Shown here piece by piece: positions 9,666 through 23,819 of a DNA stretch of 34,150 bases; position 1 is the first letter of the stretch, and each line of letters begins with the position of its first letter. The DNA comes from an uncultured bacterium. GTDB lineage: Bacteria; Planctomycetota; Phycisphaerae; Phycisphaerales; SM1A02. The translations under genes were made by a program, and so were the position numbers. The stretch lies in the NCBI GenBank assembly GCA_903911205.1, contig CAIWCL010000169.1, forward strand, positions 1 to 34,150, given 5' to 3'. Below the pieces are notes generated by a model. It made no database searches, was not told where the DNA came from, and saw nothing but the letters and a program-made list of their open reading frames with translations.

Positions 9666-9671
9666 TACCTT
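9666..9671 (+). promoter_or_regulatory. Putative -10 box of a leaderless promoter (fucokinase gene)
   Basis: Plus-strand TACCTT lies seven bases before the ATG at 9679, with no ribosome binding site. The same hexamer serves the divergent gene, so both directions of the 55-base gap carry a matching promoter. Confidence 0.5.
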
Positions 9672-9678
9672 GCTTTCA

Positions 9679-12600
9679 ATGGATGCAGCGCGCGCAGAAC
9701 GTCCGAACTTTGACTGGCTTGTCCTCACCGCCGCCAACGAGCGGCAGGCAAGTGCATACGAGGGACAACTGCGAGATCGCTTCGCGGGTGACACACAGAG
9801 TGTGAAGTCAACGCGCGTTCGACACGCGTTTGCAATCGCCGACGCGTGTGATGCGCGTATCGGATCAGGTGCGGCGACCATCTTGGCTCTCGCGGAAGTG
9901 GCGCGTCGTGTGCTTTGTATGAAGCGTGCGCGCTCGCTTGCGGAGATTTTCGCTGGCGAACGCGTGCTTGTACTGCACTCAGGCGGGGATTCGCGGCGAC
10001 TGCCGATGTATGCGGTCGAAGGGAAAATTTTCGCGCCGATTCCGAAGTCTGCTCGAGGTGGATTGTGCGCGAGCGTCTTTGATCTCCTCCTTGAAGACAT
10101 GGCGTCGCTTCCTGCGCGTGCGGGCGGCGAAGTGCTTGTTGGTGCGGGCGACGCCGTCATTGGCCTCGCACGCGCTCCTGTCCACTTTGAGGGAGCGGGC
10201 ATCGTTGGAGTCGCGCAGTGGGCGAGTGTTGCGCGCGCTTCGAAGCACGGCGTCTTTGTTCGTGGAAAGGGCGATGATGTCGCAGCGTTTCTACAAAAGC
10301 CGGACGCTCGACAGTTGCGCGCGGCAGGCGCGCTCGCGCGAGATGGTCGCGCGCTTGTCGATCTTGGACTCTTCTCATTCGACGCGTCGTCGATTGCGGA
10401 TCTGCTCGTGGGTGCGGGCGTGCAGATTCGCGCCGGAAAGATCGTCTTTGTGCGCGGTGGACTGGCGGATCGCGCATCGCGTGCGGAGTTACCGCAGATC
10501 GATCTCTATCGGGAGATTGCGATGGCACTGCCACGACAATCGTCTCGTACGCAATACCTCGAAGTTTGCGCCGGTAGCGCACGCGCCGCTGCACTCGCGA
10601 AGCCACTCGGAAAGCTCTTTGATTCCATGCGCGAAACGAGGTTTCGCGTGCAAGTCGCGGATGTGGGCGACTTCCTTCATATTGGATCGATGCGCGAGAT
10701 GCTCCGCGCACTGTGCGGACCGAGTGCAGAGATCGCGCGATTCGGCGTAGACGCGACGTCGTGTCCATTGCCGGCAATGGATGTCACCTCAGAGATTGCG
10801 CCCGTCCTCCTCGATTCGCGCGTGACGCATGCGTCTGTTGGCGCTGGCCGCGCGATTCTCGACGCGAGTGTCATCGAGCGAGCGAGGCTCGGCGGCGACA
10901 ACATCGTGTGTGGCGTCGTGGCGAAAAAGCTGGAATTGCCGCCGGAAGTCGCGCTTTTCCAGCTCTCGATGGATACGAAGACGCATCGATCAGAGTCGGT
11001 GCATCTCGCGTGCGGTGTGAACGATGACTTCAAAACCCGCCTCGATGCGGGAGGCACCTTTTTTGGTCGTCCGTTTGAAGAGTTTCTGCGACATGCACGT
11101 GTCGCGGCGGCAGACGTCATCGCAGGCGACGGAACCTTGTGGGATGCACGACTCTGGGTCGTGGATGCAGTGGATGCGGTGGACGCAACGACGGGCGCAC
11201 GTAAGAGCACCGAAGCGCATCGCACGTTGGAGTGGATGTGGCGGGAAAAGCAGGCACCAGACGCGTGGCGGAGTGCGTCGCGTGTGTCGCTCGGAGAGAT
11301 TGTTGCGCGGGGGAACAGCATGCAACGCATCGCGGCGCGAGCGATGAGCGCGGCAGATCTCGCCGCGTCGTATCCCTCGATTGCGTTTGTCAGCGCTGCA
11401 AGCGATGGCACCTTGGCAGCGATGCATCAGCGCATGCTGCGAATGTCGATGGACGGGCGGCGCGCGATCGTGTCGAGTGAGCGCGAGCTTCCAGTGCGCA
11501 TGATTGCGGCGCCGCTCGTTCGTGCGCACGCATCGGCCACGATGTCGTGCGTCGCATCAAGTCTTGGAAAGCGTTCACTGCAGCAGGCGGAAGCGTTTCG
11601 GACGCAGGCTTTTGCGGCAGTGGGCGACGCGGTCCTCTCGCATGTGGATCTTCCGACAAGTCCGCTGCGCGCTTCCATCCTCGAAGATCAGGCGGTGTGG
11701 ACGACGACACCCGTGCGTGTTGATCTCGCGGGTGGTTGGACCGACACGCCACCCATTTGTAATGCGGTTGGCGGAAGCGTTGTCAACGTCGCCGTGACGT
11801 TACGAGGCCAGCTTCCGATTCAGGTTGTTGCGAAACTTGACGAAGTACCGCGCGGTGAGGACCCCGTCATTCGCATCACCAGCACCGATCTCGGAGAGAC
11901 GCGAATCATTCGTTCGATGCGCGATCTCGTGGCGAGAGGTGATCCAACGCGTTGGTCGAGTCTTGCTGAAAATGCCTTGGTTTTGACGGGTGCCGCACCC
12001 TCTGATCCGAAGGCATCACTCACGAAGTGGTTGCGCGAGATTGGCGGTGGGATCTCCCTCACCATGTTCTCCGCAGTGCCGAAGGGTTCTGGCCTTGGCA
12101 CGAGTTCGATTCTCGGCGCAGCGACGATCCAGTGTTTGGACCGCGTCTTTGGTCGCGAGCGTTCGCCAGAAAAGTTGTTCGCGGCAACAAGTGCGCTTGA
12201 GCAGATGCTTTCGACGCGCGGTGGTTGGCAAGATCAGGTCGGTGGTGTCGTGGGAGGTTTCAAAATCGCGCACACGCAGCCAGGAGGTGAGCAACGACCC
12301 AGCGTTGAAAAACTCATCGCGCCGGAGTCGTTCGTCCGCGACATCATCTCGCGGTCGGTGCTCTACTTCACAGGCGAGCGTCGCATGGCGAAAAACATCC
12401 TTGAAAACGTGGTGTGGAATCACCTCACGCATGCGCCCGCAGCGATTGAAGCAGTGGCAGGACTGAAAGAGAATGCACCACGCATGCGCGACGCGCTCGT
12501 TCGAGGCGACAGCGATCGCTTTACCGAGGAACTCGACCGATACATGCGACTCAAGCGACAGATTGATCCAGGCTCGTCTCCGCCGATGTTCGACGCACTG

Positions 12601-12798
12601 GCGAAGCGCTGGCGGAAAGACCTCGCGGCATGGTGCTTCGCGGGCGCGGGCGGTGGTGGATTTATGCTTCTGGTGGCGAAGGACGCACGTGCTGCTGCGC
12701 GGCTCCGCGCCGATATCGCGCAGCGTCCGCAGCATCCGCGGGCACGTGCATTCGACGTCGAAGTTGATGCGGTTGGATTGCGTTGTGCCGTCCTCTGA
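9679..12798 (+). CDS. fkp: Bifunctional fucokinase / fucose-1-phosphate guanylyltransferase (FKP-type)
   Basis: The 1039-residue enzyme combines both steps of L-fucose salvage: ATP-dependent phosphorylation to fucose-1-phosphate, then transfer to GTP giving GDP-L-fucose. The N-terminal pyrophosphorylase domain shows H-S-G-G-D-S-R-R-L-P (100-109) followed by E-G-K-I-F-A-P-I-P, the G-G-x-S-x-R-x-P signature of the family. A left-handed helix-like middle region follows. The C-terminal GHMP kinase has R-V-D-L-A-G-G-W-T-D-T-P-P (about 680-692), the ATP loop P-K-G-S-G-L-G-T-S-S (about 801-810) and G-A-G-G-G-G-F near the end. The length fits bacterial and plant FKP proteins (roughly 950-1060). The ATG at 9679 is chosen over TTG 9670 because of the adjacent -10 box. 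GDP-fucose would be used for glycan or surface polysaccharide decoration. Confidence 0.92.
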   Translation: MDAARAERPNFDWLVLTAANERQASAYEGQLRDRFAGDTQSVKSTRVRHAFAIADACDARIGSGAATILALAEVARRVLCMKRARSLAEIFAGERVLVLHSGGDSRRLPMYAVEGKIFAPIPKSARGGLCASVFDLLLEDMASLPARAGGEVLVGAGDAVIGLARAPVHFEGAGIVGVAQWASVARASKHGVFVRGKGDDVAAFLQKPDARQLRAAGALARDGRALVDLGLFSFDASSIADLLVGAGVQIRAGKIVFVRGGLADRASRAELPQIDLYREIAMALPRQSSRTQYLEVCAGSARAAALAKPLGKLFDSMRETRFRVQVADVGDFLHIGSMREMLRALCGPSAEIARFGVDATSCPLPAMDVTSEIAPVLLDSRVTHASVGAGRAILDASVIERARLGGDNIVCGVVAKKLELPPEVALFQLSMDTKTHRSESVHLACGVNDDFKTRLDAGGTFFGRPFEEFLRHARVAAADVIAGDGTLWDARLWVVDAVDAVDATTGARKSTEAHRTLEWMWREKQAPDAWRSASRVSLGEIVARGNSMQRIAARAMSAADLAASYPSIAFVSAASDGTLAAMHQRMLRMSMDGRRAIVSSERELPVRMIAAPLVRAHASATMSCVASSLGKRSLQQAEAFRTQAFAAVGDAVLSHVDLPTSPLRASILEDQAVWTTTPVRVDLAGGWTDTPPICNAVGGSVVNVAVTLRGQLPIQVVAKLDEVPRGEDPVIRITSTDLGETRIIRSMRDLVARGDPTRWSSLAENALVLTGAAPSDPKASLTKWLREIGGGISLTMFSAVPKGSGLGTSSILGAATIQCLDRVFGRERSPEKLFAATSALEQMLSTRGGWQDQVGGVVGGFKIAHTQPGGEQRPSVEKLIAPESFVRDIISRSVLYFTGERRMAKNILENVVWNHLTHAPAAIEAVAGLKENAPRMRDALVRGDSDRFTEELDRYMRLKRQIDPGSSPPMFDALAKRWRKDLAAWCFAGAGGGGFMLLVAKDARAAARLRADIAQRPQHPRARAFDVEVDAVGLRCAVL

Positions 12799-12844: not shown

Positions 12845-13129
12845 CTAACGCCGCCGCAGGAACGGAATCTCGAGTCCAAGGGCTCCAAGCGCACTCACAA
12901 GTGCGAGCGTGAAGAATGCTTCATCGAGGTTTCCGACCACGGGAAGCGCATCCGGCAGAAGTTCAAACAACCCGAGCGTCGGATTGATCAGATAAAGCAC
13001 GCTGACGCAAGCAACCAGCACCGCGGCAACTTTCTTCAGCGCGCCAACGGGCTTGCGCGGGGGTTGGTCGGCAGAAGTCGGTGGCGGCGGCGGCGCCTTC
13101 GGCTCGTCGGAAGGGATCGGCGGTTGCAT
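12845..13129 (-). CDS. Small DUF1232-like membrane protein
   Basis: The 94-residue product has a Pro-rich cytoplasmic-like head (1-27) and a hydrophobic helix at about 34-53. The segment L-P-D-A-L-P-V-V-G-N-L-D-E-A (58-71) is the hallmark of DUF1232/YkvA-like proteins, and a second hydrophobic stretch at 73-87 follows. The family has no established biochemical role. It ends in basic L-R-R-R. An ATG at 13138 is also in frame, but it sits inside the probable -10 box, so I favour ATG 13129, seven bases after that box. It is convergent with fkp (46-base gap) and divergent from the 13153 gene. Confidence 0.75.
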   Translation of the reverse strand: MQPPIPSDEPKAPPPPPTSADQPPRKPVGALKKVAAVLVACVSVLYLINPTLGLFELLPDALPVVGNLDEAFFTLALVSALGALGLEIPFLRRR

Positions 13130-13134
13130 CAAGT

Positions 13135-13148
13135 CCATCGTACGATGG
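13135..13148. promoter_or_regulatory. Palindromic bidirectional -10 element
   Basis: CCATCGTACGATGG is a perfect 14-base palindrome, so TACGAT reads on both strands. The plus-strand copy (13141-13146) is six bases before ATG 13153. The minus-strand copy (13142-13137) is seven bases before ATG 13129. One melted box could start leaderless transcripts in both directions. Confidence 0.55.
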
Positions 13149-13152
13149 GCAC

Positions 13153-14025
13153 ATGGATGCTCGCGACCCGCAACCGGTGCAACAGGCGCAACCCGCGTCG
13201 CTCGCGACGAATCGGCCGTGGCTCGCTGTGGCTGGATGCCTCGGCGGTGGAACGCTCGCGATCGTGTTCGCGATGCTCCTTCTGGTCGCGGCACTCGTGT
13301 TCCTGTTCTTCAACCCCGATGTCTTGTCGTCGAAGGGCCGACAGAAAGCGCTCTTCGTTTCTGCGCTTGGGCGTCTGACCGAGGCGCCAGCACTCAAGGT
13401 TGCGACGCGCGAGATTGCGGTCCGCGTCGATGCGAGCACGCCCACCGAGGCGACGCTTCGGGCGTGGCTTGTTCCGATCGGGCCCGGATGGAAAATCGAG
13501 CTCGGGCGGACGAAGGTCGAGATCGTCGCTGAGGGAAATCGCGTCCAATACGTCATTCCGCTCGAAAAAGACGTCGAAAGTGAAGAGCGTCCGTCACGGA
13601 CCATTGTTGACGGCGACCGTGTGCAAATCACGCCGCACAACCGCGAGGGTGTGAAAGCCGAGCTTGCATGGAACCTCGATGACCCGAAGGCGGAGGTTGT
13701 CGTGACCTTGCCTCCGCCGCGCGTCGACGAAACTCTGGTCGAAGTGCAGAGTGACCCGAAGCGTCTGCGGATTCAAATTGATCGCGACTGGGCCGACCAT
13801 GTTGTTGGTGATGACCGCGCCCGAGACGAGGCACTTGCCGCGATTCGCGCGGCTGTTGTTCGCGAGGCGTCCTCCGAGATCGCCATGTTCGAGGTTCGTG
13901 AAAAAGCCCGTGCGACGGTCGTCGAGATGCTCCGCGCACTCCTTCCCGAAGACCTGCGTGATCGTCCAATTCGGATCCGGTGGAGCGACGAGGCCGACAC
14001 CGACGGCAAGTCTGTGCTCAATTGA
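13153..14025 (+). CDS. Membrane-anchored protein of unknown function
   Basis: The 290-residue product has one transmembrane helix at about 24-54 after a short Gln/Pro-rich head, then an extracytoplasmic or periplasmic domain rich in charged residues. Its C-terminal part (about 220-280) has alternating helices and the end R-P-I-R-I-R-W. This is faintly reminiscent of DUF4230 proteins, but I cannot assign it to a family with confidence. The ATG at 13153 is six bases after the palindromic -10 box. It stops 15 bases before the chemoreceptor gene, which has its own -10 box inside the gap. A link to the chemosensory cluster is possible from position only. Confidence 0.7.
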   Translation: MDARDPQPVQQAQPASLATNRPWLAVAGCLGGGTLAIVFAMLLLVAALVFLFFNPDVLSSKGRQKALFVSALGRLTEAPALKVATREIAVRVDASTPTEATLRAWLVPIGPGWKIELGRTKVEIVAEGNRVQYVIPLEKDVESEERPSRTIVDGDRVQITPHNREGVKAELAWNLDDPKAEVVVTLPPPRVDETLVEVQSDPKRLRIQIDRDWADHVVGDDRARDEALAAIRAAVVREASSEIAMFEVREKARATVVEMLRALLPEDLRDRPIRIRWSDEADTDGKSVLN

Positions 14026-14040: not shown

Positions 14041-16167
14041 ATGGCCGTGCGCCCCGCGTTTCATCGCTCGCTCCTCGGTCGAAGCATGCTCTTCGGCGTT
14101 CTTCCCGCGGCACTTGTCGTTCTCGTGGTTGTCGTTCTGAATGGCGTGCGCGCGTGGAGTAATCTCAGCGCGAGCCTTGAGCGCGACCTGCGAAACGCGA
14201 CCGAACTGGCGGCGAAAGAAATCAACATTCGCAACGAAAAGACCGTGCGACTTGTCGAGTTGATGGCCTTCGTGCAAGAGAGCGGGCAATTCGGTCGTCG
14301 CGCCGAAACGCTTGTGCTGCTCGAGCGGATTATTCGGGAAAATCCCGACGTATATGCGGCGTACATTGGCTACGAACCCAACGCCGATGGGAATGACGCG
14401 CAAGGTGCGGGTCCCGGCATTCCGACCGAAGCACTCGGCGAGGGTGGTCGTTTCTATCCCTATTTCAAGCGCGATTTGAAGGCCGCCGGTGGCATACGCG
14501 TCGAGCCGCTTCAAGAAGTCGAAGACGACGACGGCCTCTGGTATCGCTTCCCCAAGACGCGATTTGAGCGTTCGGGGGTTCGTGATGCGGTCATTACGAA
14601 GCCGTACGAATATCTCGGCACCGACATCATCGAGACCGTTGTGCCGATCATCATGGATCGAAAGTTCGCGGGAGTTGCCGGGCTCGACGTTGCACTCACT
14701 GGAGTACAGGAGCGTCTCAGTACGATTGCGAGCGAACTTGGCGCGGACATTTTCCTTGAAACGCGCGGACGCTACATCGCAGCGACCACCGATCGCGCAG
14801 GAGGCGCGGTACTCAGGACCACCGAAGTCGCGCGATCACCACTGGCAGCCATCTTTGACGAGGTTCCCGCGCAGGGTGTTCGTCTCGAAGAACGGCTTGA
14901 CCCGATGTCGGGCGAGTCAGCATTCTTCGTGTCAGCCACAGTTCCCACCGGTGGTTGGCGGCTGATCGTCCGAAAGCCAGCGAGCGCTGTTCTTGCAGAG
15001 CTCTTCGGACTTTTCGCGGCGAACATGATCACCGCGATCGTTGGGATTTCGATCATTGTCGGGCTCCTTCTTATCCTTGCGATCGGCATAAGCCGTCGTG
15101 TGCGACTGGCGCAAGATGCGGCGGTTCGCATCGCGTCCGGCGATCTCTCACAACGCGTGACGGATGAAGCTGGCAGCGATGAATCTGCGGAGCTCGTGCG
15201 CGCGATGGGCCGGATGAATGACGATCTCGCGAAGATCGTCGGCAGCGTGCGCGCCGCAGCCACCCGGCTTGCATCGTCGAGCGTCGAACTCTCGGCGACA
15301 AGTCGCCAACAAGAAGCGGCCGCGGCTGCGTTTGGTGGATCCACCGCGCAAATCGCCGCAGCGATTCGCGAGATTTCCGCGACAGGGAGCGAGCTCTTGC
15401 GCACTGTTGGTTCGGTCGACTCGGGCGCGCGGCGGTCTGCGGAATCAGCAGGAGCAGGCCGTGAACGGCTCGACATGATGGCTTCCACAATGGCGCGACT
15501 CGACGCCTCCACAGGCGAAATCGGCGATCGTCTGCAGGTCATCTCGGAGAAGGCATCCGCCATCAATGCCGTGATTGAAACCATCACAAAGGTGGCAGAG
15601 CAAACAAATCTTCTCTCGGTCAACGCCGCGATTGAAGCGGAAAAGGCGGGTGACGCGGGGCTTGGCTTCCTTGTCGTCGCGCGTGAAATTCGACGGCTCG
15701 CAGATCAAACGGCGTCCGCGACCACCGATATCGAGCGCATCGTGCAGCAGATGCAAGATGCGGTTGCTGCGGGCGTCGTCGAAATGTCGCGATTCACGCG
15801 CGATATGCGAGGGGGAACGGCCGATGTCCAGCGTGTGGCGAACGATCTCGGCGGAATCATCACGGAAATGAACGCGGCCGTTGCAGGATTCTCAGAGGTC
15901 GAATCAGGCATGGCGGCGCAGGCAACTGGCGTCGCGCAGATTGAGGGAGCGGTGCGGCAGGTCGCGGATGGCGCGCGACAAACTTCATCAAGCGTTTCTG
16001 AGTTCGGGCGTGTGGCGAGCGAACTCTCGCATTCGGTTGCCGTGCTTCAAGATGCGGTCGCGCGTTTCCAACTGACAGCGGAAGCCAGCGCCAAAGCCGA
16101 TCGGTCGGTGTGCACGCATACCCGCACGGATTCGGAAGACACGTCATCAAGTGCGGAGCGGCCCTGA
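14041..16167 (+). CDS. Methyl-accepting chemotaxis protein, WspA-like
   Basis: The 708-residue receptor has TM helix 1 at 16-36 and a large periplasmic sensor at about 40-318 of double-Cache type (F-Y-P-Y-F and [18 protein letters not shown] are typical). TM helix 2 is at 325-350, HAMP at about 350-403 and a coiled-coil signalling domain at 404-680. The hairpin tip at 519-545 ([18 protein letters not shown], then [18 protein letters not shown]) has the E-A-E-K-A-G and I-R-R-L-A-D-Q-T wording of WspA receptors. It would activate the CheA at 18742 through the two CheW proteins. It is the first gene of the operon; its stop overlaps the next start (TGATG). The stimulus is unknown; Pseudomonas WspA senses surface contact. 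Confidence 0.92.
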
Positions 16168-16661
16168 TGTCTGCGCCAATCTCGGTCCTTCTTGTAACCG
16201 TCGGCGGAAAGCGATTTGCACTCGATGCACGAGAAGTTGTCGAGGTGCTCCCCGTGGTTGCGTTTCGACCCGCGGGAACGGGACCGAAGTGGCTCCTCGG
16301 GCTTTTCAATTTGCGCGGCGCGCTTCTTCCGCTCGTCGATCTCTCAATCATTGTCGATGGAGCGCCGACTGCTTCGCGCCTCGGATCGCGCATCGTTGTG
16401 TTGCGACTCGATGGCGATCTCTTTGAAGGTGCGACACGATCGGTCGGGTTGCTCGTTCCAGAGGTGGCTGGCCTCGCGATACGCGATTTTCATGCGAACG
16501 GAGCGCACGAGGGCTTCTCGTTTGCGGGAGCGCCGCACCTTGGCCCAACGGTCGCGGATGAGGAAGGCACGTTGCAACTGCTTCGTTGTCGAAGGCTGTT
16601 GGAGGGCGATGCCGCGTTGCGAGAACTTCCCTCCTTGAGCGCGGATGGAGGCATCGGGTGA
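16167..16661 (+). CDS. CheW-like coupling protein, WspB-like
   Basis: The 164-residue protein is a single CheW beta-barrel: the start L-L-V-T-V-G-G-K-R-F-A-L-D, then V-V-E-V-L-P and L-L-G-L-F-N-L-R-G-A-L-L-P-L-V-D-L at about 46-62. That last segment is the strand that docks receptors and CheA. The ATG overlaps the MCP stop and has GGAG eight bases upstream (16155-16158). Its position between receptor and CheR equals wspB. It would link WspA-like receptors to the kinase. Confidence 0.88.
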   Translation: MSAPISVLLVTVGGKRFALDAREVVEVLPVVAFRPAGTGPKWLLGLFNLRGALLPLVDLSIIVDGAPTASRLGSRIVVLRLDGDLFEGATRSVGLLVPEVAGLAIRDFHANGAHEGFSFAGAPHLGPTVADEEGTLQLLRCRRLLEGDAALRELPSLSADGGIG

Positions 16662-18019
16662 CCGCGCGCATCCCTGAGGATGAACGAAGTTCTCACGCGC
16701 CATCTGAGGCATCGACTTCTGCGCTTGAGACCATTTTGAATCGTCTCAAGATTTCGAGCAGTTTTCCGGCGTCGCTCCTTTCCCGTGAGCGTCTTGCTTC
16801 GTATCTCGCGATGCGCGCACAGGAGTTACGCCTGCCATCGATCACTGCGATGACGTCGCGCGTCGACTCGGATGCGGCCGAGTACGCGCGCATCGAAGGA
16901 CTCTTTTCTCCGCCGGAAACATGGTTGTTTCGCTATCCGGAGAGTTGCGAGTTCTTGCGCGCACGGATTGCGCACGGTGGCGCCGGCGTCTTCCGTGTGC
17001 TTCTTGCAGGGTGCGGCGGTTGGTGCGAACCCGTGTCGGTTGCGTGTGCGCTGCTTGATGGCGCGCATGGAATGCGTCGCGTTGAAATCGACGCCATCGA
17101 TCGCAATCCGCATGTCTTTGAGGCGGCATTGCGTATGACCGGTCTCCAAATCCGGAGCGGAGTTCCTTCGTGGGCCGAGCACTGTTTCGAACGAGAAGAG
17201 CGCGCGCTTGTGCCAAAAAGAGACGTCTGTTCGGTGATTCGTCCGCGGGTTGCCGATGTTGGTGTTTTTGTCGAAGAGAGTGTCCTCAGGGGCGATCGCT
17301 ACGACGCGGTACTCTTTCGCAATGTCGCGATCTATCTTGATGACACGATGCGCGCGCGTGTCTTTCGGGGAATCAGGCAGATCCTGGCGCCAAATGGAGT
17401 TCTGCTCGTTGGTCACTCGGAAGTATTTGCAGCCGCGGAGGCGACTGGTTTCGAGCCAGTATCTGCAACCGGGGTCTTTGCGCTCACGCCGACATGCAAC
17501 ACGAACGCGGGGAGCGCGACATCAACGTGCAGCGTGCCAGATGCTCGGGCGCGTGAGTCGAAGACCGCGTCGCCATACGACGCTTCGCGTTCTGGCGTGT
17601 CGCGCCGGACTGTGCCGACCCCGCCGTCCCCAGTCCCACCACCAAGCGCGCCGCTCCAAATGAAACTTCAGGCAGCACCCAACGCAACCGACGATTTGCA
17701 TCCTGCATCGTTCGTGCTGCTTGCTCGTGAACTCGAGTCTGCGGGTGATTTACTCGGCGCATGGCAAGTGATTGGGAAGGCGCTCTATCTTGATCGGTGG
17801 CATGAGGAGGCGTTGGTTTTTGCAGCGCAACTCGCCGAGAAACGAGGAGATCGTGCCGAAGCGGAGCGACTCCGCATTCGCGCGCTGCGCGCCCATCTTG
17901 CGAATGAGGCGATTCGTGAGCACGGACGCGAAGGCGAGCGCAAGAACGAGACGCGCGACCGATCCGAACGATCCGCGGGTGATGTCCGCCGTGCTTCTCG
18001 ACCCCACGAAGAAAGTTGA
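16658..18019 (+). CDS. CheR-type methyltransferase with C-terminal TPR-like region, WspC-like
   Basis: The 453-residue protein has a CheR N-terminal helical subdomain (about 20-80), the P-P-E-T-W-L-F-R-Y motif (85-93) and an AdoMet-binding core. F-R-N-V-A-I-Y-L-D (220-228) and L-A-P-N-G-V-L-L-V-G-H-S-E (243-255) follow. A Ser/Thr/Pro-rich linker leads to tetratricopeptide-like helices (about 350-425), as in WspC. Motif I is unusual: CGGWCEPVSVA (119-129), where relatives read C-S-T-G-E-E-P-Y-S-x-A, so two glycine-loop positions are changed. It should methylate glutamates of the receptor. The start is GTG 16658, overlapping the CheW stop as GTGA with GGAGG six bases upstream; this beats the TTG at 16586. 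Confidence 0.88.
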   Translation: MTARIPEDERSSHAPSEASTSALETILNRLKISSSFPASLLSRERLASYLAMRAQELRLPSITAMTSRVDSDAAEYARIEGLFSPPETWLFRYPESCEFLRARIAHGGAGVFRVLLAGCGGWCEPVSVACALLDGAHGMRRVEIDAIDRNPHVFEAALRMTGLQIRSGVPSWAEHCFEREERALVPKRDVCSVIRPRVADVGVFVEESVLRGDRYDAVLFRNVAIYLDDTMRARVFRGIRQILAPNGVLLVGHSEVFAAAEATGFEPVSATGVFALTPTCNTNAGSATSTCSVPDARARESKTASPYDASRSGVSRRTVPTPPSPVPPPSAPLQMKLQAAPNATDDLHPASFVLLARELESAGDLLGAWQVIGKALYLDRWHEEALVFAAQLAEKRGDRAEAERLRIRALRAHLANEAIREHGREGERKNETRDRSERSAGDVRRASRPHEES

Positions 18020-18106
18020 ATCGCCTGATAGTCTCTCTGCAACCACGTTCCGTCACTCGCATCGCCGACCATCGCTCCGAAATCATCGCCTTCTCTCGCG
18101 CCGCAG

Positions 18107-18745
18107 ATGGCTGCATCTCCTGAACAACATCGCTCATCCGACACTGCAGCGGAAGCCAGTCCTTCGCTCGCGCGGTCGGGTCATGAACTGGCGCGTATGC
18201 GGAGGCTTCTCGATCGTCCGCTGAGCGAGAACGATCTCGAAGAGAACACACGACTTGTTGCGCAGCGGGTCGACGAATCGCGCGGTACGGATCAGGGTGT
18301 TGCGAGCATCCTCGTTTTTCGCATCGGAGCTGAGCGACTGGCACTCGATGCGGAAGCGACGCATCGTGTTGTTCCAATCTCAACCGTTCGTCGCGTGCCA
18401 CATCGCTCGAGCGAGACGTTCGCAGGAATCGCCAACGTCGGCGGCGAACTTCTCCTCGTCGCTCGACTTGGTGCATCGTTGGGATTGATCGCGCAGGAGA
18501 GATCAAGCCACTTCATTGTGATTGGTGGTGCGGGCGCGCGCTGGGCGTTTGCGGTCGATGCCATCGAAGGCGTGCGACGCGTGCGACGTTCGGAGCTCGT
18601 CTCGCCTCCAGCGACCGTGCGGCACGCAGTTGATGGATGTGCACAGAGCGTCTACTGCGACCGAAGTGTTGAAGGCAACGATTCACTCATCACCTTGCTC
18701 GACGGAGCCAAAGTCTGCGCGCTTCTCGCAAGGAGCATCGCATGA
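18107..18745 (+). CDS. CheW-like coupling protein, WspD-like
   Basis: The 212-residue protein has an N-terminal helical extension with R-R-L-L-D-R-P-L-S-E-N-D-L-E-E-N-T (32-48), as in WspD proteins, and a CheW domain from about 66 to 210 (I-L-V-F-R-I-G-A-E-R-L-A-L-D; F-A-G-I-A-N-V-G-G-E-L-L-L-V). An 87-base gap separates it from the CheR gene, the largest gap before the last gene of the cluster. Its ATG has no good ribosome site, so an internal promoter or reinitiation is possible (TAGTCT at 18029-18034 is a weak candidate). Its stop overlaps the CheA start (ATGA). Confidence 0.85.
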   Translation: MAASPEQHRSSDTAAEASPSLARSGHELARMRRLLDRPLSENDLEENTRLVAQRVDESRGTDQGVASILVFRIGAERLALDAEATHRVVPISTVRRVPHRSSETFAGIANVGGELLLVARLGASLGLIAQERSSHFIVIGGAGARWAFAVDAIEGVRRVRRSELVSPPATVRHAVDGCAQSVYCDRSVEGNDSLITLLDGAKVCALLARSIA

Positions 18746-21369
18746 GCGACCTCGGCGGATTTAGTTTGCATGAGCTCTTCAAGGGCGAAGCCGAAATGCA
18801 TGCGGCTGCGCTCAGTGAAGGGCTTGTCCGCCTTGAAGGTTTGAGCGATCCGGCGACCGTCGAACCGCTGATGCGTGCAGCGCACTCGATCAAGGGTGCG
18901 GCGCGTGTGATCGGGCTTGATATTGCCGTGCGTCTCGCTCACGCGATGGAGGATGTGCTCGTTGCCATGCAGAAAGGGCGCGAGGCCATTCAGGCGTCGC
19001 GTATCGACCAACTGTTGAAGGGAACAGATCTCCTCGCCTCACTCGCGCAGGTCGAGGAATCAGCAGTGCCAGCGTGGACTGCGGCGCACGACGCTGCGGT
19101 GACCTCACTTGTGGAGTCGCTGCGTGTTGCGCCGCCGAGTCGTCCGGCAGCATCGACTCCGATCGCAGAAGTTGCGGGTGTGATCGAGACTCCGGCGGCG
19201 TCGGTCGTGCAGAGCGCGCACGTGATTTCGGAGACGCAGTCGATACAGGGAGCTGAGGTCATCGAGTCCTCTCTCACAGCGACCGCGCACGAGCAGCCGA
19301 CTCCATTCGTTGCATCATCGATACCTGCGGCGGTCACTGCGTCGCAGTCAGCGCCAGTGACTCCCGCAACGTCAGCGACTCCCGTCACGCCTGCCACACC
19401 GTCCGCGCGATCGACCGCTGTTCGTGTCACCGCTGAAAAGCTGGATCGGCTGCTCCAACTCGCGGGCGAGACCATGCTTGAATCTCGGCGCTTGGAGGCG
19501 GTTCGTACCGAAGCGGTTGAAATCAAGCGTGAACTGACGCGGCTTGAGGATGAACTGGATCACTTGCGCAGCGTGGTGCGGCGTGCGGGTCTTGACGCGT
19601 CGCTCCTTGCGCCTGCGCGTGGCATTCTTGATCGGAGCAGAGGATGCGTGCTCGCACATCTTCTCACAGTTGAGAGCGCGATCCGTCGTGGTGAAGAAAC
19701 TTCAACGCAGCTCTACCACGAAGTTCTCTCGAGTCGTATGCGCCCTTTCTCTGACGTCACCGCGGCACTGCCGAGAACGGTTCGCGACGTGGCGCGTGCA
19801 CTCGGAAAGGACGCGAAGATCGAGGTCATCGGTGAGAACGTCCCGGTCGATCGTGACATCCTCGCGCGTCTCGATGCTCCGCTCAATCACATGCTTCGGA
19901 ATGCGCTTGATCATGGCGTCGAGTCGCCGGAAGAGCGTCGGGCGCGGGGCAAGTCGCCGCAGGCAACGCTCCGCGTGGAAGCAAGACACCATGCGGGACA
20001 ACTTCGTATTCGAGTTTCCGATGACGGTCGTGGTATCGATCTCGAGGCGTTGCGCGAACGAATCGTGCGCAAGCAACTCGCTTCGAGCGACATGGTTGCC
20101 GAACTCGATCGCCAGGAATTGCTGGAGTTTCTATTTCTTCCCGGTTTCTCGACCGCGCAAAAGGTGACCGAGTATTCGGGTCGTGGTGTTGGACTTGATG
20201 TCGTACAAACGACTGCACGCGAGATCGGCGGTGTTGCGCGTATTCACACCGAACTCGGTCAAGGCACCGTTTTTGAACTCGATCTTCCGATCACGCTCTC
20301 CGTGCTTCGGGCACTGTTGGTCGAAGTATGCGGCGAAACACTTGCGTTTCCGCTCGCCCGCATTGATCGAGTGGTGCAGCCGGAACGCGAGGCCATTGCG
20401 ACGGTCGCGGGTCGAATGCAGTTCTTACTCGAAGATGCAGATGCCGCACAGAGTTCTATGACAAATGGATCTGTGGCGAGTGGTTCTCTGTCAAATGCAG
20501 CGAGTGTGACGACCTCGGTTGGCATCATCGAAGCAGCCCGTGTGTTGCAGCTTGGCGAACCACGATCCGACGATTCGCGTGCCAATATTGTCGTGCTCGG
20601 ATCGGGCGATGAGCGCTATGGCTTCGCAGTTGATGGGCTTGTTGGCGAAGAAGATCTTGTCGTGCGCGCACTCGATCCGCGGCTTGGCAAGGTTGCGCAT
20701 CTCGCCGCATCAGCAGTTCGAGAGAACGGCGATCCGGTACTCATTGTGGACACCGAGGACATCATCCAATCGGTGCGGATGGCGCTCAACGAGGGTCGGT
20801 TGCGTGGCGCACGGCCTGCACTCGAGAGTGCGTCGCGCCGCGTGCGTCGCGCGCTTGTGGTGGACGATTCAGCCACGGTTCGCGAGGTTGAGCGGCAATT
20901 GCTGCTGCGTATGGGTTTCGCGGTTGAGACGGCGGTCGATGGTCTCGACGGTTGGCATCAACTTCGCGATGGCAATTTTGATTTGGTTGTCAGCGACATC
21001 GACATGCCGCGCATGAATGGAATCGAGTTTGTTCGAACACTGCGCGCAGATGCGCGATTTACCTCGATTCCGGTCATCGTGGTGAGTTACAAAGATCGTG
21101 AGGAGGATCGTCGTGCGGGTCTTGAGGCAGGCGCAACCGCCTATCTGACGAAAGGTGCATTTCAGGACAGCACCTTCGCAGACACCGTGCGTGATCTTGT
21201 CGGTGTCGAGATGTCGGAGCTTGCGCCTTCACATGCGCCTTCACATGCGCCTTCACATGCGCCTTCGAACGAACTTTCGAATGCGCCTTTGAGGGGTGTC
21301 GAAGGGTCTGCAAGGCGATCGTCGACAGAGCAGCAATCACGCGATGGCGGATCGCGAGGTGCGCCGTGA
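18742..21369 (+). CDS. Hybrid chemotaxis histidine kinase CheA-REC, WspE-like
   Basis: The 875-residue kinase has an HPt domain with A-A-H-S-I-K-G-A-A-R (His48 is the phosphorylation site) and a Ser/Thr/Ala/Pro-rich linker (125-225). The dimerisation helices are at about 225-345. The ATPase has N-box N-H-M-L-R-N-A-L-D-H-G (382-392), D-D-G-R-G-I-D (427-433) and S-G-R-G-V-G-L-D-V-V (479-488). A CheW-like domain (about 518-685) and a C-terminal receiver (700-822) with acceptor Asp752 and Lys804 complete it, followed by a repeat-bearing tail. The order HPt-kinase-CheW-REC equals WspE. It would phosphorylate the CheB-like and the REC-phosphatase proteins, with its own receiver as a possible sink. 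AGGAG lies six bases before ATG 18742. Confidence 0.93.
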   Translation: MSDLGGFSLHELFKGEAEMHAAALSEGLVRLEGLSDPATVEPLMRAAHSIKGAARVIGLDIAVRLAHAMEDVLVAMQKGREAIQASRIDQLLKGTDLLASLAQVEESAVPAWTAAHDAAVTSLVESLRVAPPSRPAASTPIAEVAGVIETPAASVVQSAHVISETQSIQGAEVIESSLTATAHEQPTPFVASSIPAAVTASQSAPVTPATSATPVTPATPSARSTAVRVTAEKLDRLLQLAGETMLESRRLEAVRTEAVEIKRELTRLEDELDHLRSVVRRAGLDASLLAPARGILDRSRGCVLAHLLTVESAIRRGEETSTQLYHEVLSSRMRPFSDVTAALPRTVRDVARALGKDAKIEVIGENVPVDRDILARLDAPLNHMLRNALDHGVESPEERRARGKSPQATLRVEARHHAGQLRIRVSDDGRGIDLEALRERIVRKQLASSDMVAELDRQELLEFLFLPGFSTAQKVTEYSGRGVGLDVVQTTAREIGGVARIHTELGQGTVFELDLPITLSVLRALLVEVCGETLAFPLARIDRVVQPEREAIATVAGRMQFLLEDADAAQSSMTNGSVASGSLSNAASVTTSVGIIEAARVLQLGEPRSDDSRANIVVLGSGDERYGFAVDGLVGEEDLVVRALDPRLGKVAHLAASAVRENGDPVLIVDTEDIIQSVRMALNEGRLRGARPALESASRRVRRALVVDDSATVREVERQLLLRMGFAVETAVDGLDGWHQLRDGNFDLVVSDIDMPRMNGIEFVRTLRADARFTSIPVIVVSYKDREEDRRAGLEAGATAYLTKGAFQDSTFADTVRDLVGVEMSELAPSHAPSHAPSHAPSNELSNAPLRGVEGSARRSSTEQQSRDGGSRGAP
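21223..21270 (+). repeat. 12-bp tandem repeat inside the CheA gene
   Basis: The unit GCGCCTTCACAT occurs three times in perfect tandem (21223-21258) and once more imperfectly (21259-21270). It encodes A-P-S-H repeats in the tail after the receiver domain. The repeats are in frame, so copy-number change would lengthen or shorten the tail by four residues. Confidence 0.9.
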
Positions 21370-22496
21370 GAATTGCGATTGTGAATGATCTCGCGGTCGC
21401 ATGCGAAGCGCTTCGTCGTGTTGTCGTAAGCGATACCGCGCTTTCGATTGCGTGGATTGCGCGGGATGGCGACGAAGCAATTGCCAACGCCGCGCGCGAT
21501 CGCCCCGATGTGATTCTGATGGATCTCATCATGCCGCGCGTCAACGGCGCTGAAGCGACGCGTGCGATCATGCGCGCGTCACCGTGTCCAATTCTTGTTG
21601 TAACTGCGACGGTCACAGGCAACGCGGGTCTGGTCTACGAAGCGCTTGGGGCAGGAGCTCTCGATGCGGTGAATACGCCGACACTTGGATCAGGCGGTTC
21701 CGTCTCAGGCGGCGCCGATTTGCTTCGTCGTATCCATCTGGTCGCACGCCTCGCGCAATCGCGCGCCCGCGCGGTGCCAACGCAGACGGTCGCTCCAGCC
21801 AAGTCGCCAGCGTCCGTTCCGGCGCCGCCTTCCACCCCGCCTGTCGCGCCGCCCTCCACGCCTTCGATCGTGACATCATCGGCAGCTCAAGCTTCCATTG
21901 CTCGCGGGCCGGGGCTCCGAGGTCTTCTGCCGACGATCGTGGCGATTGGCGCATCGACGGGTGGGCCACGCGCTGTTGCCGACCTCCTTCGTGCGCTCCC
22001 GAAAGAGCTGCGTGCGACGTTCCTTGTGGTCCAACACGTCTCTGTTGAGTTTGTCGCGGGATACGCGCAGTGGCTTTCTGCCGAGACCGGTCGTCGCGTG
22101 ACCATCGCGCGCAACGGTGATGTGCTGCGCGAGGGCGATGTCTTTGTTGCGGGCGAGGATCGTCATCTCACAGTCTCTCGGAGCGGGGTGCTCGAGTACC
22201 GCGAGGAGCCAAAGGACCACTTGCACAAACCAGCGGTGGATGAGCTTTTCACATCACTTGCCGCATTGCCTACGCCCGGGGTTGCGGTGCTTCTCACCGG
22301 AATGGGTCGCGATGGTGCGGATGGGCTCCTCGCGCTGCGACGCGCGGGTTGGCACACGATCGCGCAGGATGAGGCGACCAGTGTTGTGTGGGGAATGCCA
22401 GGGGCTGCGCACCGAGCGGGTGCAGCCGTCGAAACACTCCCGATTCAAGCGATTGGCGCGGCGGTCGCGGCGGTGGTGCGAAGGTCTGCGGTGTGA
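21366..22496 (+). CDS. CheB-type chemoreceptor methylesterase, WspF-like
   Basis: The 376-residue protein has a receiver (about 1-125) with acceptor Asp53 and a Pro/Ala/Ser-rich linker (135-180). The CheB esterase domain has the catalytic triad Ser197 (G-A-S-T-G-G), His224 (V-V-Q-H-V) and Asp316 (G-M-G-R-D-G-A-D-G). It removes receptor methyl groups and resets signalling. The receiver has N-T-P (103-105) where most receivers have the conserved K-P pair, so phosphorylation control may differ. The start is GTG 21366, overlapping the CheA stop as GTGA, with GAGG six bases upstream. In Pseudomonas, loss of WspF locks the pathway on. Confidence 0.92.
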   Translation: MRIAIVNDLAVACEALRRVVVSDTALSIAWIARDGDEAIANAARDRPDVILMDLIMPRVNGAEATRAIMRASPCPILVVTATVTGNAGLVYEALGAGALDAVNTPTLGSGGSVSGGADLLRRIHLVARLAQSRARAVPTQTVAPAKSPASVPAPPSTPPVAPPSTPSIVTSSAAQASIARGPGLRGLLPTIVAIGASTGGPRAVADLLRALPKELRATFLVVQHVSVEFVAGYAQWLSAETGRRVTIARNGDVLREGDVFVAGEDRHLTVSRSGVLEYREEPKDHLHKPAVDELFTSLAALPTPGVAVLLTGMGRDGADGLLALRRAGWHTIAQDEATSVVWGMPGAAHRAGAAVETLPIQAIGAAVAAVVRRSAV

Positions 22497-22560
22497 TGTG
22501 ACTCGCGCGAGTCGTCGACGAATGTGCGCACAAAACAGGCGGTGAACGCGACGACGAGTT

Positions 22561-22620
22561 TTGAGGTCGGGCTTGAGATCGGAATTGAGGTCGGATTTGA
22601 GACCAAGTTTTGAGAAGGAA
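22561..22620 (+). repeat. 12-bp periodic repeat before the output gene
   Basis: Units beginning TTGAGGTCGG, TTGAGATCGG, TTGAGGTCGG and TTGAGACCAA start at 22561, 22573, 22585 and 22597; a fifth TTGAG sits at 22610. The 12-base period covers most of the 129-base gap between the CheB gene and the REC-phosphatase gene and runs into its ribosome binding site (AAGGAA, 22615-22620). It could be a repeated operator, an unstructured mRNA leader or a decayed coding tail. Confidence 0.8.
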
Positions 22621-22625
22621 ACTCT

Positions 22626-23819
22626 ATGCAGAGTGTTGGCACCATCGATCGCGTTCTTCTTGTGGACGACCAGGCCATCGTTGGCGAAGCGGTTCGACGC
22701 ATGATTGCGACGCAGGGCGACTGTGCATATCGCGCCGTAAATGATCCTGCGAAAGCGATCGAAGTGGCGGAAGAGTTCCGACCGACCGTAATCTTGCAAG
22801 ATATTGAAATGCCTGGCATGAACGGGCTTGATCTCGTTGGTCGCTATCGCGCCCACGAGGCGACGCGTGAAGTGCCGGTCATCATGCTGACGGGAAAGGA
22901 AGACCCGGCGGTGAAGGCAGACGCGTTCGCGCGCGGCGCGAGCGATTACCTTGTGAAGTTGCCACATCCGGTTGAACTCGTCGCGCGTATTCGACATCAC
23001 TCGCACGGCTATCGCATGCAGTTAGAGCGAAATGCGGCCTTTGCAGCGCTTGCGGCGAGCGAAGCGCACATGAAAGCGGAGATCAATCGCGCGGCGGCGT
23101 ATGTGCGTTCTTTGCTCGATCAACCAATGGACGGCGTAGTGCACGCTGATTGGCGATTCGTTCCGTGCGAAGCACTCGGGGGTGACGTCTTTGGCTACCA
23201 CTGGATCGATGACGATCATCTCGCGATGTATGTGATCGATGTGAGCGGTCACGGAGTCGGTCCCGCATTGATGGGCGTTTCTGCGATGAATCTCATCAAG
23301 AGCGGTTCGCTCGAGCGTGAGCAGGTGCTTGATCCGACGCGCACGCTGCAGGCACTGAATGCTGCGTTTCCGATGGCGCGCCACGACGGCATGTACTTCA
23401 CCATCTGGTACGGCGTCTACAACCAACGAACACGTGAGCTCGCATGGTCTGGTGGCGGACATCCACCGTCGTTTCTTTTGCGCGGTGGAACGCTCCGTCG
23501 GCTTGAGTCGACGACGTTCATGATCGGCATCGTGGACGACTACGACGCGCCGACCGAGCGGACCACGTTGGAGGCCGGCGATAGGCTCTACCTCTTCTCG
23601 GACGGTGTCTTTGAACTCCACCTCAAGGCGGGGGGGATTTGGGGACTCGACCAACTTGAGGCGTTTCTCGCGAAAAGTCCTGCGGCCGACGTCTTGGATG
23701 CGGTTGTGGCCGAGACACGGCGGGTGGTGCTCGACGGAAGAGGTCAGGTCGACCCCGGATCGGGTGCTGCGGTCGCGTGGGATGACGACTTCTCGCTCAT
23801 CGAGTTCCGCTTCGCGTGA
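22626..23819 (+). CDS. Response regulator with PP2C/RsbU-type serine phosphatase output (WspR-like receiver)
   Basis: The 397-residue protein has a receiver at 8-125 with acidic pair Asp14-Asp15, acceptor Asp59 (L-Q-D-I-E-M-P-G), Thr89 and Lys111. Its wording V-L-L-V-D-D-Q-A, P-T-V-I-L-Q-D and D-Y-L-V-K-L-P-x3-E-L-V-A-R-I-R is that of WspR. After a helical linker (125-165) a PP2C/SpoIIE domain replaces GGDEF. Its metal ligands are visible: Asp187 in G-G-D, Asp205 in V-I-D-V-S-G-H-G, Asp326 in F-S-D-G and Asp387/388 in D-D-F-S-L-I. It should be an active phosphatase, by family knowledge acting on phosphoserine of a STAS-domain anti-anti-sigma partner. None is encoded in the window. ATG 22626 has AAGGAA five bases upstream. 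It is the last gene of the cluster. Confidence 0.92.
   Translation: MQSVGTIDRVLLVDDQAIVGEAVRRMIATQGDCAYRAVNDPAKAIEVAEEFRPTVILQDIEMPGMNGLDLVGRYRAHEATREVPVIMLTGKEDPAVKADAFARGASDYLVKLPHPVELVARIRHHSHGYRMQLERNAAFAALAASEAHMKAEINRAAAYVRSLLDQPMDGVVHADWRFVPCEALGGDVFGYHWIDDDHLAMYVIDVSGHGVGPALMGVSAMNLIKSGSLEREQVLDPTRTLQALNAAFPMARHDGMYFTIWYGVYNQRTRELAWSGGGHPPSFLLRGGTLRRLESTTFMIGIVDDYDAPTERTTLEAGDRLYLFSDGVFELHLKAGGIWGLDQLEAFLAKSPAADVLDAVVAETRRVVLDGRGQVDPGSGAAVAWDDDFSLIEFRFA

Follow-up and report, generated by a model that had tools for sequence, protein, structure and literature searches.

We analysed a 34,150-nucleotide stretch (the window) of contig CAIWCL010000169.1 (C169 in our numbering), part of the 3.87 Mb genome of an uncultured Phycisphaerales bacterium (96.9% complete, 393 contigs), which at 14041-23819 holds a Wsp-type chemosensory gene cluster whose last gene encodes a receiver (REC) domain joined to a SpoIIE-type family 2C protein phosphatase (PP2C). 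The Wsp system of Pseudomonas is a sensor array that controls biofilm formation by making cyclic di-GMP (c-di-GMP), and it is a standard model of surface-driven c-di-GMP signalling. An earlier note on this DNA had described the cluster as a surface-sensing array rewired from c-di-GMP to the phosphatase. Domain assignment with Pfam confirms the seven-gene order that it gave (MCP, CheW, CheR, CheW, CheA with a REC domain, CheB and a REC output; that is, wspA-B-C-D-E-F and then the receiver-PP2C gene), with all genes on the forward strand and the domains in the claimed order:

13081..14025, forward strand: protein of unknown function encoded immediately upstream of wspA, with no match in Pfam and conserved in the genus; a putative member of the pathway at most
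14041..16167, forward strand: wspA-like chemoreceptor, 708 amino acids (aa), with a PDC/Cache sensor, HAMP and the MCP signalling domain
16167..16661, forward strand: wspB-like CheW (reading frame opens at 16110; likely ATG at 16167, from the sequence)
16658..18019, forward strand: wspC-like CheR methyltransferase, 453 aa from the GTG at 16658 (reading frame opens at 16586)
18107..18745, forward strand: wspD-like CheW
18742..21369, forward strand: wspE-like CheA, with Hpt, HATPase kinase and CheW domains and a C-terminal REC
21366..22496, forward strand: wspF-like CheB, with REC and methylesterase domains
22626..23819, forward strand: output regulator, 397 aa, with REC and SpoIIE (PP2C) domains
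22800..22802, forward strand: codon of D59, the predicted phosphorylation site of the receiver

The likely starts of wspB and wspC, read from the sequence, overlap the preceding genes by 1 base and 4 bases; 4-base overlaps are also found at wspD-wspE and wspE-wspF, and 129 bases lie between wspF and the output gene.

The output regulator consists of a WspR-type receiver (about aa 9-124), a long helical linker, and a PP2C/SpoIIE domain (aa 195-369 by Pfam, reaching aa 396 with our own profile). The best solved matches over the receiver are the WspR proteins of P. aeruginosa and P. syringae (3bre, E-value 1.5e-42; 3i5a, 5.1e-41), followed by P. aeruginosa RssB, a REC-PP2C protein matched over nearly the full length (7.4e-23). 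In a quick tree of 178 receivers, built from few columns, 131 rows split from the other 47 with a support of 99 in the Shimodaira-Hasegawa-like approximate likelihood ratio test (SH-aLRT); all WspR-type rows, including the window's output receiver, are inside the 131-row group, and the sole outsider there is the receiver of the window's WspF, on a branch of length 5.6, which we read as a misplaced row. Pseudomonas WspR receivers are placed among PP2C-linked receivers in this tree. Profile scores leave a gap in the surveyed loci, with WspR-type receivers at 119 bits or more and all others at 94 bits or less. The receiver of the output regulator is of the WspR type, and its position in the tree, the receptor tip, the hybrid CheA and the CheB type agree on the Wsp-type character that the earlier note had seen.

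The second domain has the PP2C fold, as indicated by its PF07228 match and by Foldseek matches to SpoIIE, RsbU, RsbX and SiaA. The AlphaFold model of the protein (mean predicted local distance difference test score 88.5, predicted template modelling score 0.66) shows a long helix (aa 115-163) connecting two domains; its closest Foldseek match is P. aeruginosa RssB (E-value 4.9e-27), and by domain it matches WspR, the SiaA PP2C domain, SpoIIE, RsbU, RsbX, and the RsbU-RsbW of Rv1364c. An alignment of 108 homologues, the window's protein among them, shows no variation at D14, D15, D59, K111, D187, D205, H209, and D326; D387 and D388 occur in 107 sequences, the remaining one having a gap, and position 89 is serine or threonine. 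From what is known of SpoIIE and RsbU we take D187, D205, D326, D387, and D388 to be metal ligands. The output domain is a complete PP2C of the RsbU/SpoIIE kind and not a GGDEF domain, so that the locus is a Wsp-type system rather than a canonical Wsp-WspR system; the full invariance of D59 fits its predicted role as phosphosite. According to Pfam, the chain ends after the PP2C domain and the protein holds no HATPase kinase domain. This bears on a regulator of the HsbR or CrsR kind, in which one protein would both phosphorylate and dephosphorylate its STAS partner: the REC-PP2C core is common to those proteins and ours, but with the kinase domain absent we regard such a double role as highly improbable.

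For the receptor, the picture is mixed. Its signalling tip (31 protein letters) is similar to those of other Wsp receptors; the pattern F.VVA.EIRRLAD is found in 37 of 46 PP2C-labelled and 8 of 17 GGDEF-labelled receptors, and three GGDEF-type tips that were inspected deviate from it by at most one letter. Judging from these residues, the tip is of one kind across PP2C- and GGDEF-type receptors. The sensor part of the window's receptor is a PDC domain above the Pfam cut-off, with a sub-threshold dCache match, in contrast to the 4HB_MCP_1 bundle found in three of the four GGDEF-type receptors tested (the fourth gave a sub-threshold TarH match), a bundle that is not known to be obligatory for Wsp systems. 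Other PP2C-type receptors vary in this part: Tll0287-like in L122, sub-threshold PDC in L144 and L161, and no named domain in L179 and L116. Since the sensor differs from most of the GGDEF-type receptors tested, the surface-sensing label is unsupported here, and the window's receptor could sense a small ligand. A further detail of the earlier note, a CheR with tetratricopeptide repeats (TPR), is unconfirmed for the window: a TPR family is detected at an E-value of 1e-3 or better in six of nine CheR homologues and in neither of two same-genus ones, and the C-terminal extension of the window's CheR gave no TPR match even at an E-value of 10.

The receiver-phosphatase gene is inherited together with the array. 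A full-length REC-PP2C is present in 15 of 16 genomes of the same genus, the exception being G011, where the contig stops 0.9 kb past WspE. WspE occurs together with a full-length REC-PP2C in 18 of the family's 37 genomes, another 16 lack the pair, and the three mismatches (G005, G008, and G011) are all at contig ends; thus REC-PP2C is co-inherited with WspE within the family. The full seven-gene order is found in 13 of the 18 same-family loci (L052, L054-L063, L065, and L066) and the other five are cut by contig ends, which excludes chance. That the window holds an isolated fusion is ruled out, since the fusion is kept in the genus and beyond. As to the surroundings, a protein resembling the bifunctional fucokinase/fucose-1-phosphate guanylyltransferase is encoded at 9670-12798 of the window, and a protein of this kind precedes wspA wherever the contig of a same-genus locus reaches far enough, and at L060 as well; at 28864-30891, a glucosamine-6-phosphate isomerase domain is fused to a PIG-L deacetylase domain.

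We find a division between lineages in the output carried by WspR-type receivers. Output classes were assigned with small profiles built in this analysis and spot-checked with Pfam. A survey with the receiver only, over 392 planctomycete genomes, gave 24 with a match at an E-value of 1e-25; in 20 of these the match is strong (best E-value 4e-54 or lower), and 19 of the 20 genomes have such a receiver on a PP2C protein, 18 of them beside wspE/wspF; for G004 and G020 the output was taken from their same-family loci. The remaining strong case (G166) is a REC-HisKA-HATPase-REC protein, and none of the 20 carries a GGDEF domain; three of the four weak matches held no WspR-type receiver, and the fourth (G148) was not fetched. 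Although no GGDEF-type WspR went into the planctomycete profile, GGDEF-linked receivers reach 149-200 bits with it and are therefore unlikely to have been overlooked. At L189:10685-12346, the WspR-type receiver of a wsp cluster heads a REC-HisKA-HATPase-REC hybrid kinase. Over 398 Pseudomonadota genomes, 71 had a match at an E-value of 1e-35, and the output classes cover the 30 loci returned for these: the best 22 (L200-L221), all with a WspF match, comprise 21 with GGDEF and one with PP2C (G431, the survey centre, picked for having PP2C), and the other eight comprise four with GGDEF and four with none of the tested outputs. In these surveys, the strong planctomycete WspR-type receivers are nearly all on PP2C, and those of the best Pseudomonadota loci nearly all on GGDEF.

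A scan of public genomes that started from motifs of PP2C and the receiver (and is hence biased), and that overlaps partly with the genomes of the other surveys, gave 80 loci. All six other wsp genes are matched at 27 of them; another 24 have wspE- and wspF-like matches without all six (L108, L125, and L138 among these are a different, distant cluster, later used as outgroup), and 11 have one of these two. At 45 of the 80, wspF lies directly upstream of the REC-PP2C gene, within 1 kb. The phylum labels, taken from record names and tree labels (many are metagenome bins, possibly labelled wrongly), include Planctomycetota, Acidobacteriota, Thermodesulfobacteriota, Myxococcota, Lentisphaerota, Ignavibacteriota, Elusimicrobiota, Verrucomicrobiota, Chlamydiota, and Pseudomonadota. 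Because the PP2C version is present in other phyla, clusters annotated as Wsp may act by a route that is not the textbook one.

Which output came first was addressed with a tree of concatenated CheA and CheB from 65 loci (22 of 87 were dropped as near-copies or for cut genes), each classed by whichever WspR-type receiver it carries, even one upstream of wspA or on the opposite strand. The 13 GGDEF-only systems are accounted for by one change (support 91), and two dual-output loci adjoin them (support 98). These two are gammaproteobacterial wsp clusters with both WspR-GGDEF and a divergent REC-PP2C at one locus (L096:96-1121 and 9818-11524, where a STAS gene comes right after REC-PP2C; L098:2-964 and 9938-11146). 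In a rooted quick tree, with 15 further ingroup rows dropped and four outgroup rows, the GGDEF clade (98) is nested among PP2C lineages, and this nesting is seen again when the Fla-type outgroup is removed, when it is the only outgroup, and when CheA is used by itself; a tree of CheB by itself did not recover the GGDEF clade. A single PP2C clade was not rejected by the approximately unbiased test (p 0.603), and the tree keeping PP2C together had a score 7.1 log units above that of the free tree. Since PP2C is the commoner output in a partly biased sample and the rooting leaves the order unsettled, the claim of a system rewired from c-di-GMP is unsupported, and the reverse is unproven. A broader history is conceivable, to which we give somewhat less than an even chance: the phosphatase would be the original Wsp output, Wsp would have begun as a partner switch over many phyla, the WspR/c-di-GMP system of Pseudomonas would be a later single swap, and the WspR-type receiver would be a plug for which six or more outputs are on record: PP2C, GGDEF, HD-GYP, FAD-NAD(P) oxidoreductase, nucleotide cyclase, and hybrid histidine kinase.

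In the window's own genome, L080:327-2009 (contig C245) encodes a WspR-type receiver followed by GAF and HD-GYP domains, unlinked to a wsp cluster; similar unlinked fusions of the receiver to HD-GYP are L074-L079. Four same-genus genomes have a WspR-type receiver on a FAD-NAD(P)-binding oxidoreductase (L070:5233-7290, L071:8218-10095, L072:8360-10213, and L073:2902-4779; NAD_binding_9 by a Pfam run on L072), and the quick tree places their receivers as the sister group of those on the REC-PP2C proteins of the genus (91). A REC-guanylate cyclase and a REC-PP2C stand in tandem after wspF in L156:8341-11167. It is possible, if rather unlikely, that the output is branched, with WspE driving both the REC-PP2C of the operon and the unlinked HD-GYP protein (and, in some relatives, the oxidoreductase too), so that the phosphatase and c-di-GMP breakdown would be switched together; this is compatible with the explanation that we prefer below. 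Consistent with branching are the HD-GYP receivers in the own genome and relatives, the NAD_binding_9 proteins in G001, G007, G012, and G014, and L103:6563-8985, where REC-HD-GYP and REC-PP2C stand in tandem after wspF at the end of one wsp cluster. On the other hand, G021 has the HD-GYP type (L076) and no match to a WspE of the Wsp kind, so the HD-GYP type can exist without the array, and identity between the HD-GYP receivers and that of the window is 43-50%; a kinase specificity common to both is putative.

If the phosphatase acts by partner switching, its substrate would be a STAS protein. STAS and RsbW profiles, built from proteins of the own genome, were run over the 80 public loci with a 50-bit filter. 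Nine RsbW-type genes scored above the filter, every one of them no more than 1.5 kb from the cluster; this zone accounts for 24% of the sequence outside the clusters (binomial p 2.8e-6). Four of six STAS genes also lie in it (p 0.03), and Pfam confirmed PF13581 or PF01740 in all 15. At L100, for example, the complete wsp cluster is in line with REC-PP2C, RsbW, and STAS genes, all in the same orientation, and in Desulfoferrobacter suflitae DRH4 (L122) a single locus likewise brings together the array, REC-PP2C, RsbW, and STAS. Among planctomycetes, L184 has REC-PP2C, STAS, and RsbW in a row, with no array within the 15 kb read, and at L187 a wsp cluster and REC-PP2C are followed by a convergent gene whose product has an RsbW-type domain. 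At GGDEF-type loci, no STAS or RsbW neighbour was found in 21 loci (1.5 kb flanks), nor in 16 longer stretches. The own genome has six STAS matches and one clear RsbW, which adjoins a STAS gene (G000:C387:3191-4000); judged by RsbV/RsbW motifs, the serine of this STAS protein and the boxes of the kinase are presumably intact, and this STAS protein beside the RsbW-type kinase is the best single partner candidate.

A number of observations weigh against a STAS partner, and against tying the regulator to Wsp arrays in general. The partner proposed in the earlier note has indirect backing, from gene adjacency in other lineages: neither the window's contig nor the 18 own-family loci have a STAS or RsbW neighbour. 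Such a neighbour is present at only 10 of the 80 public loci, and the comparison with the GGDEF-type loci (10/80 vs 0/21) is not significant alone (Fisher p 0.12). Two weaker RsbW matches fell under the 50-bit filter; L142 adjoins the cluster, and L102, about 3 kb off, would count as far. RsbW of the C387 type is found in 57 of the 61 genomes of the order, with or without the array; being near-universal, it does not track the array, and we dropped its co-occurrence with the array, which is uninformative, as evidence for a partner. Two array-bearing genomes, G015 (95% complete) and G006 (82%), gave no RsbW match. Finally, 18 of the 80 public loci have REC-PP2C with no wsp gene in view (some are cut short), so the regulator may not always be bound to Wsp.

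A clean break from c-di-GMP, as implied by the earlier note, does not follow either, given the receiver-GAF-HD-GYP protein in the same genome and the HsbA- and SiaC-type switches that feed diguanylate cyclases. The client of the phosphatase's switch could thus itself be a c-di-GMP enzyme, with the pathway still ending in c-di-GMP as in HsbR-HsbA-HsbD or SiaA-SiaC-SiaD, which we judge unlikely. According to the published descriptions at hand, HsbA interacts with the cyclase HsbD (PMC5085249, PMC6482189) and SiaD is under the control of SiaA, SiaB, and SiaC (PMC9239204); the PP2C domain matches that of SiaA in Foldseek, and the own genome has three GGDEF matches besides the HD-GYP protein. Against this, the SiaC family (PF09345) has no match in the own genome, which speaks against a SiaC partner, and none of the three GGDEF matches is on C169 (array) or C387 (STAS-RsbW), an absence that is weak evidence in an assembly of 393 contigs. 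A separate REC-GGDEF protein as the true target was rejected: the only GGDEF protein with a receiver match has a receiver 23% identical to the window's, hence not WspR-type. With this result and the grouping of the window's receiver with WspR, two of the outcomes that the earlier note named as refuting it did not occur.

We therefore prefer, with a probability of roughly 0.6, the explanation that this is a Wsp-class array with a receiver-PP2C output acting via a STAS partner switch. The mechanism is plausible and would run as follows. The Cache-type receptor would control the WspE kinase, which would phosphorylate both the receiver, at D59, and WspF, the enzyme of adaptation. Once phosphorylated, the receiver may turn on the PP2C domain via the long helical linker (in the model, aa 115-163), as proposed for HsbR-type regulators, and the phosphatase would dephosphorylate a STAS protein whose gene lies at another site of the genome, so that the partner switch flips and a sigma factor or other client is freed or captured. 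If so, a chemosensory array would be tied to partner switching, for which L100 holds array, phosphatase, RsbW, and STAS in one stretch.

Parts of this arrangement have precedents. A REC domain fused to a family 2C Ser/Thr phosphatase was listed in 2012 among the regulators of ACF-class clusters with CheR-TPR (PMC3447774), and the fusion of our regulator is alike; the passages of that paper at hand make no mention of WspR-type receivers on PP2C, the lineage split, or RsbW/STAS neighbours, and "planctomyc" is absent from its main text. Since the fusion was thus already catalogued, what is new here is the WspR identity of the receiver, the lineage split, and the RsbW/STAS adjacency in other lineages. 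Genome papers interpret clusters of this kind by the surface-driven c-di-GMP model: planctomycete WspE-WspRF genes, for instance, were taken to suggest surface-affinity regulation, in passages that leave the output domain unstated (PMC6461901); because no strong planctomycete WspR-type receiver in our survey carries GGDEF, a surface/c-di-GMP reading of planctomycete wsp genes is unsafe. Circuits of STAS, kinase, and PP2C were proposed in Campylobacterota, one with a REC-PP2C-kinase protein, in the portion of PMC9239204 available. Our literature search, which extended neither to supplements nor to Wuichet and Zhulin 2010 (cited in PMC3447774), found no paper joining a Wsp array, a PP2C output, and STAS/RsbW neighbours.

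Among known partner switches, RsbU-RsbV-RsbW is similar in that a STAS protein and an RsbW-type kinase are in the genome (the C387 pair), and different in that no partner genes are beside the window's phosphatase. SiaA is a membrane sensor and not a receiver protein. The SiaABCD system (structure match 6k4e) shares with ours a PP2C phosphatase and, as described in part of PMC9239204, a STAS-type partner, which in ours is putative, and differs in having SiaC. HsbR-HsbA of P. aeruginosa and CrsR-CrsA of Shewanella are alike in having a receiver and PP2C, which there act on a STAS anti-sigma antagonist, but HsbR and CrsR have an extra kinase/anti-sigma domain that the window's protein lacks, and HsbR belongs to the HptB cascade rather than to the operon of a chemosensory array (PMC6482189, in the sections at hand). 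HsbR dephosphorylates HsbA, which then binds FlgM, and phosphorylated HsbA binds the cyclase HsbD (excerpts of PMC6482189 and PMC5085249); since HsbA serves both, partner switching and c-di-GMP are not exclusive. Wsp of Pseudomonas (WspABCDEF-WspR) resembles our system in the order of its genes, the tip of its receptor, its hybrid CheA, its kind of CheB, and the receiver of its output regulator; our system departs from it in the PDC/Cache sensor of the receptor and in an output domain that is PP2C instead of GGDEF.

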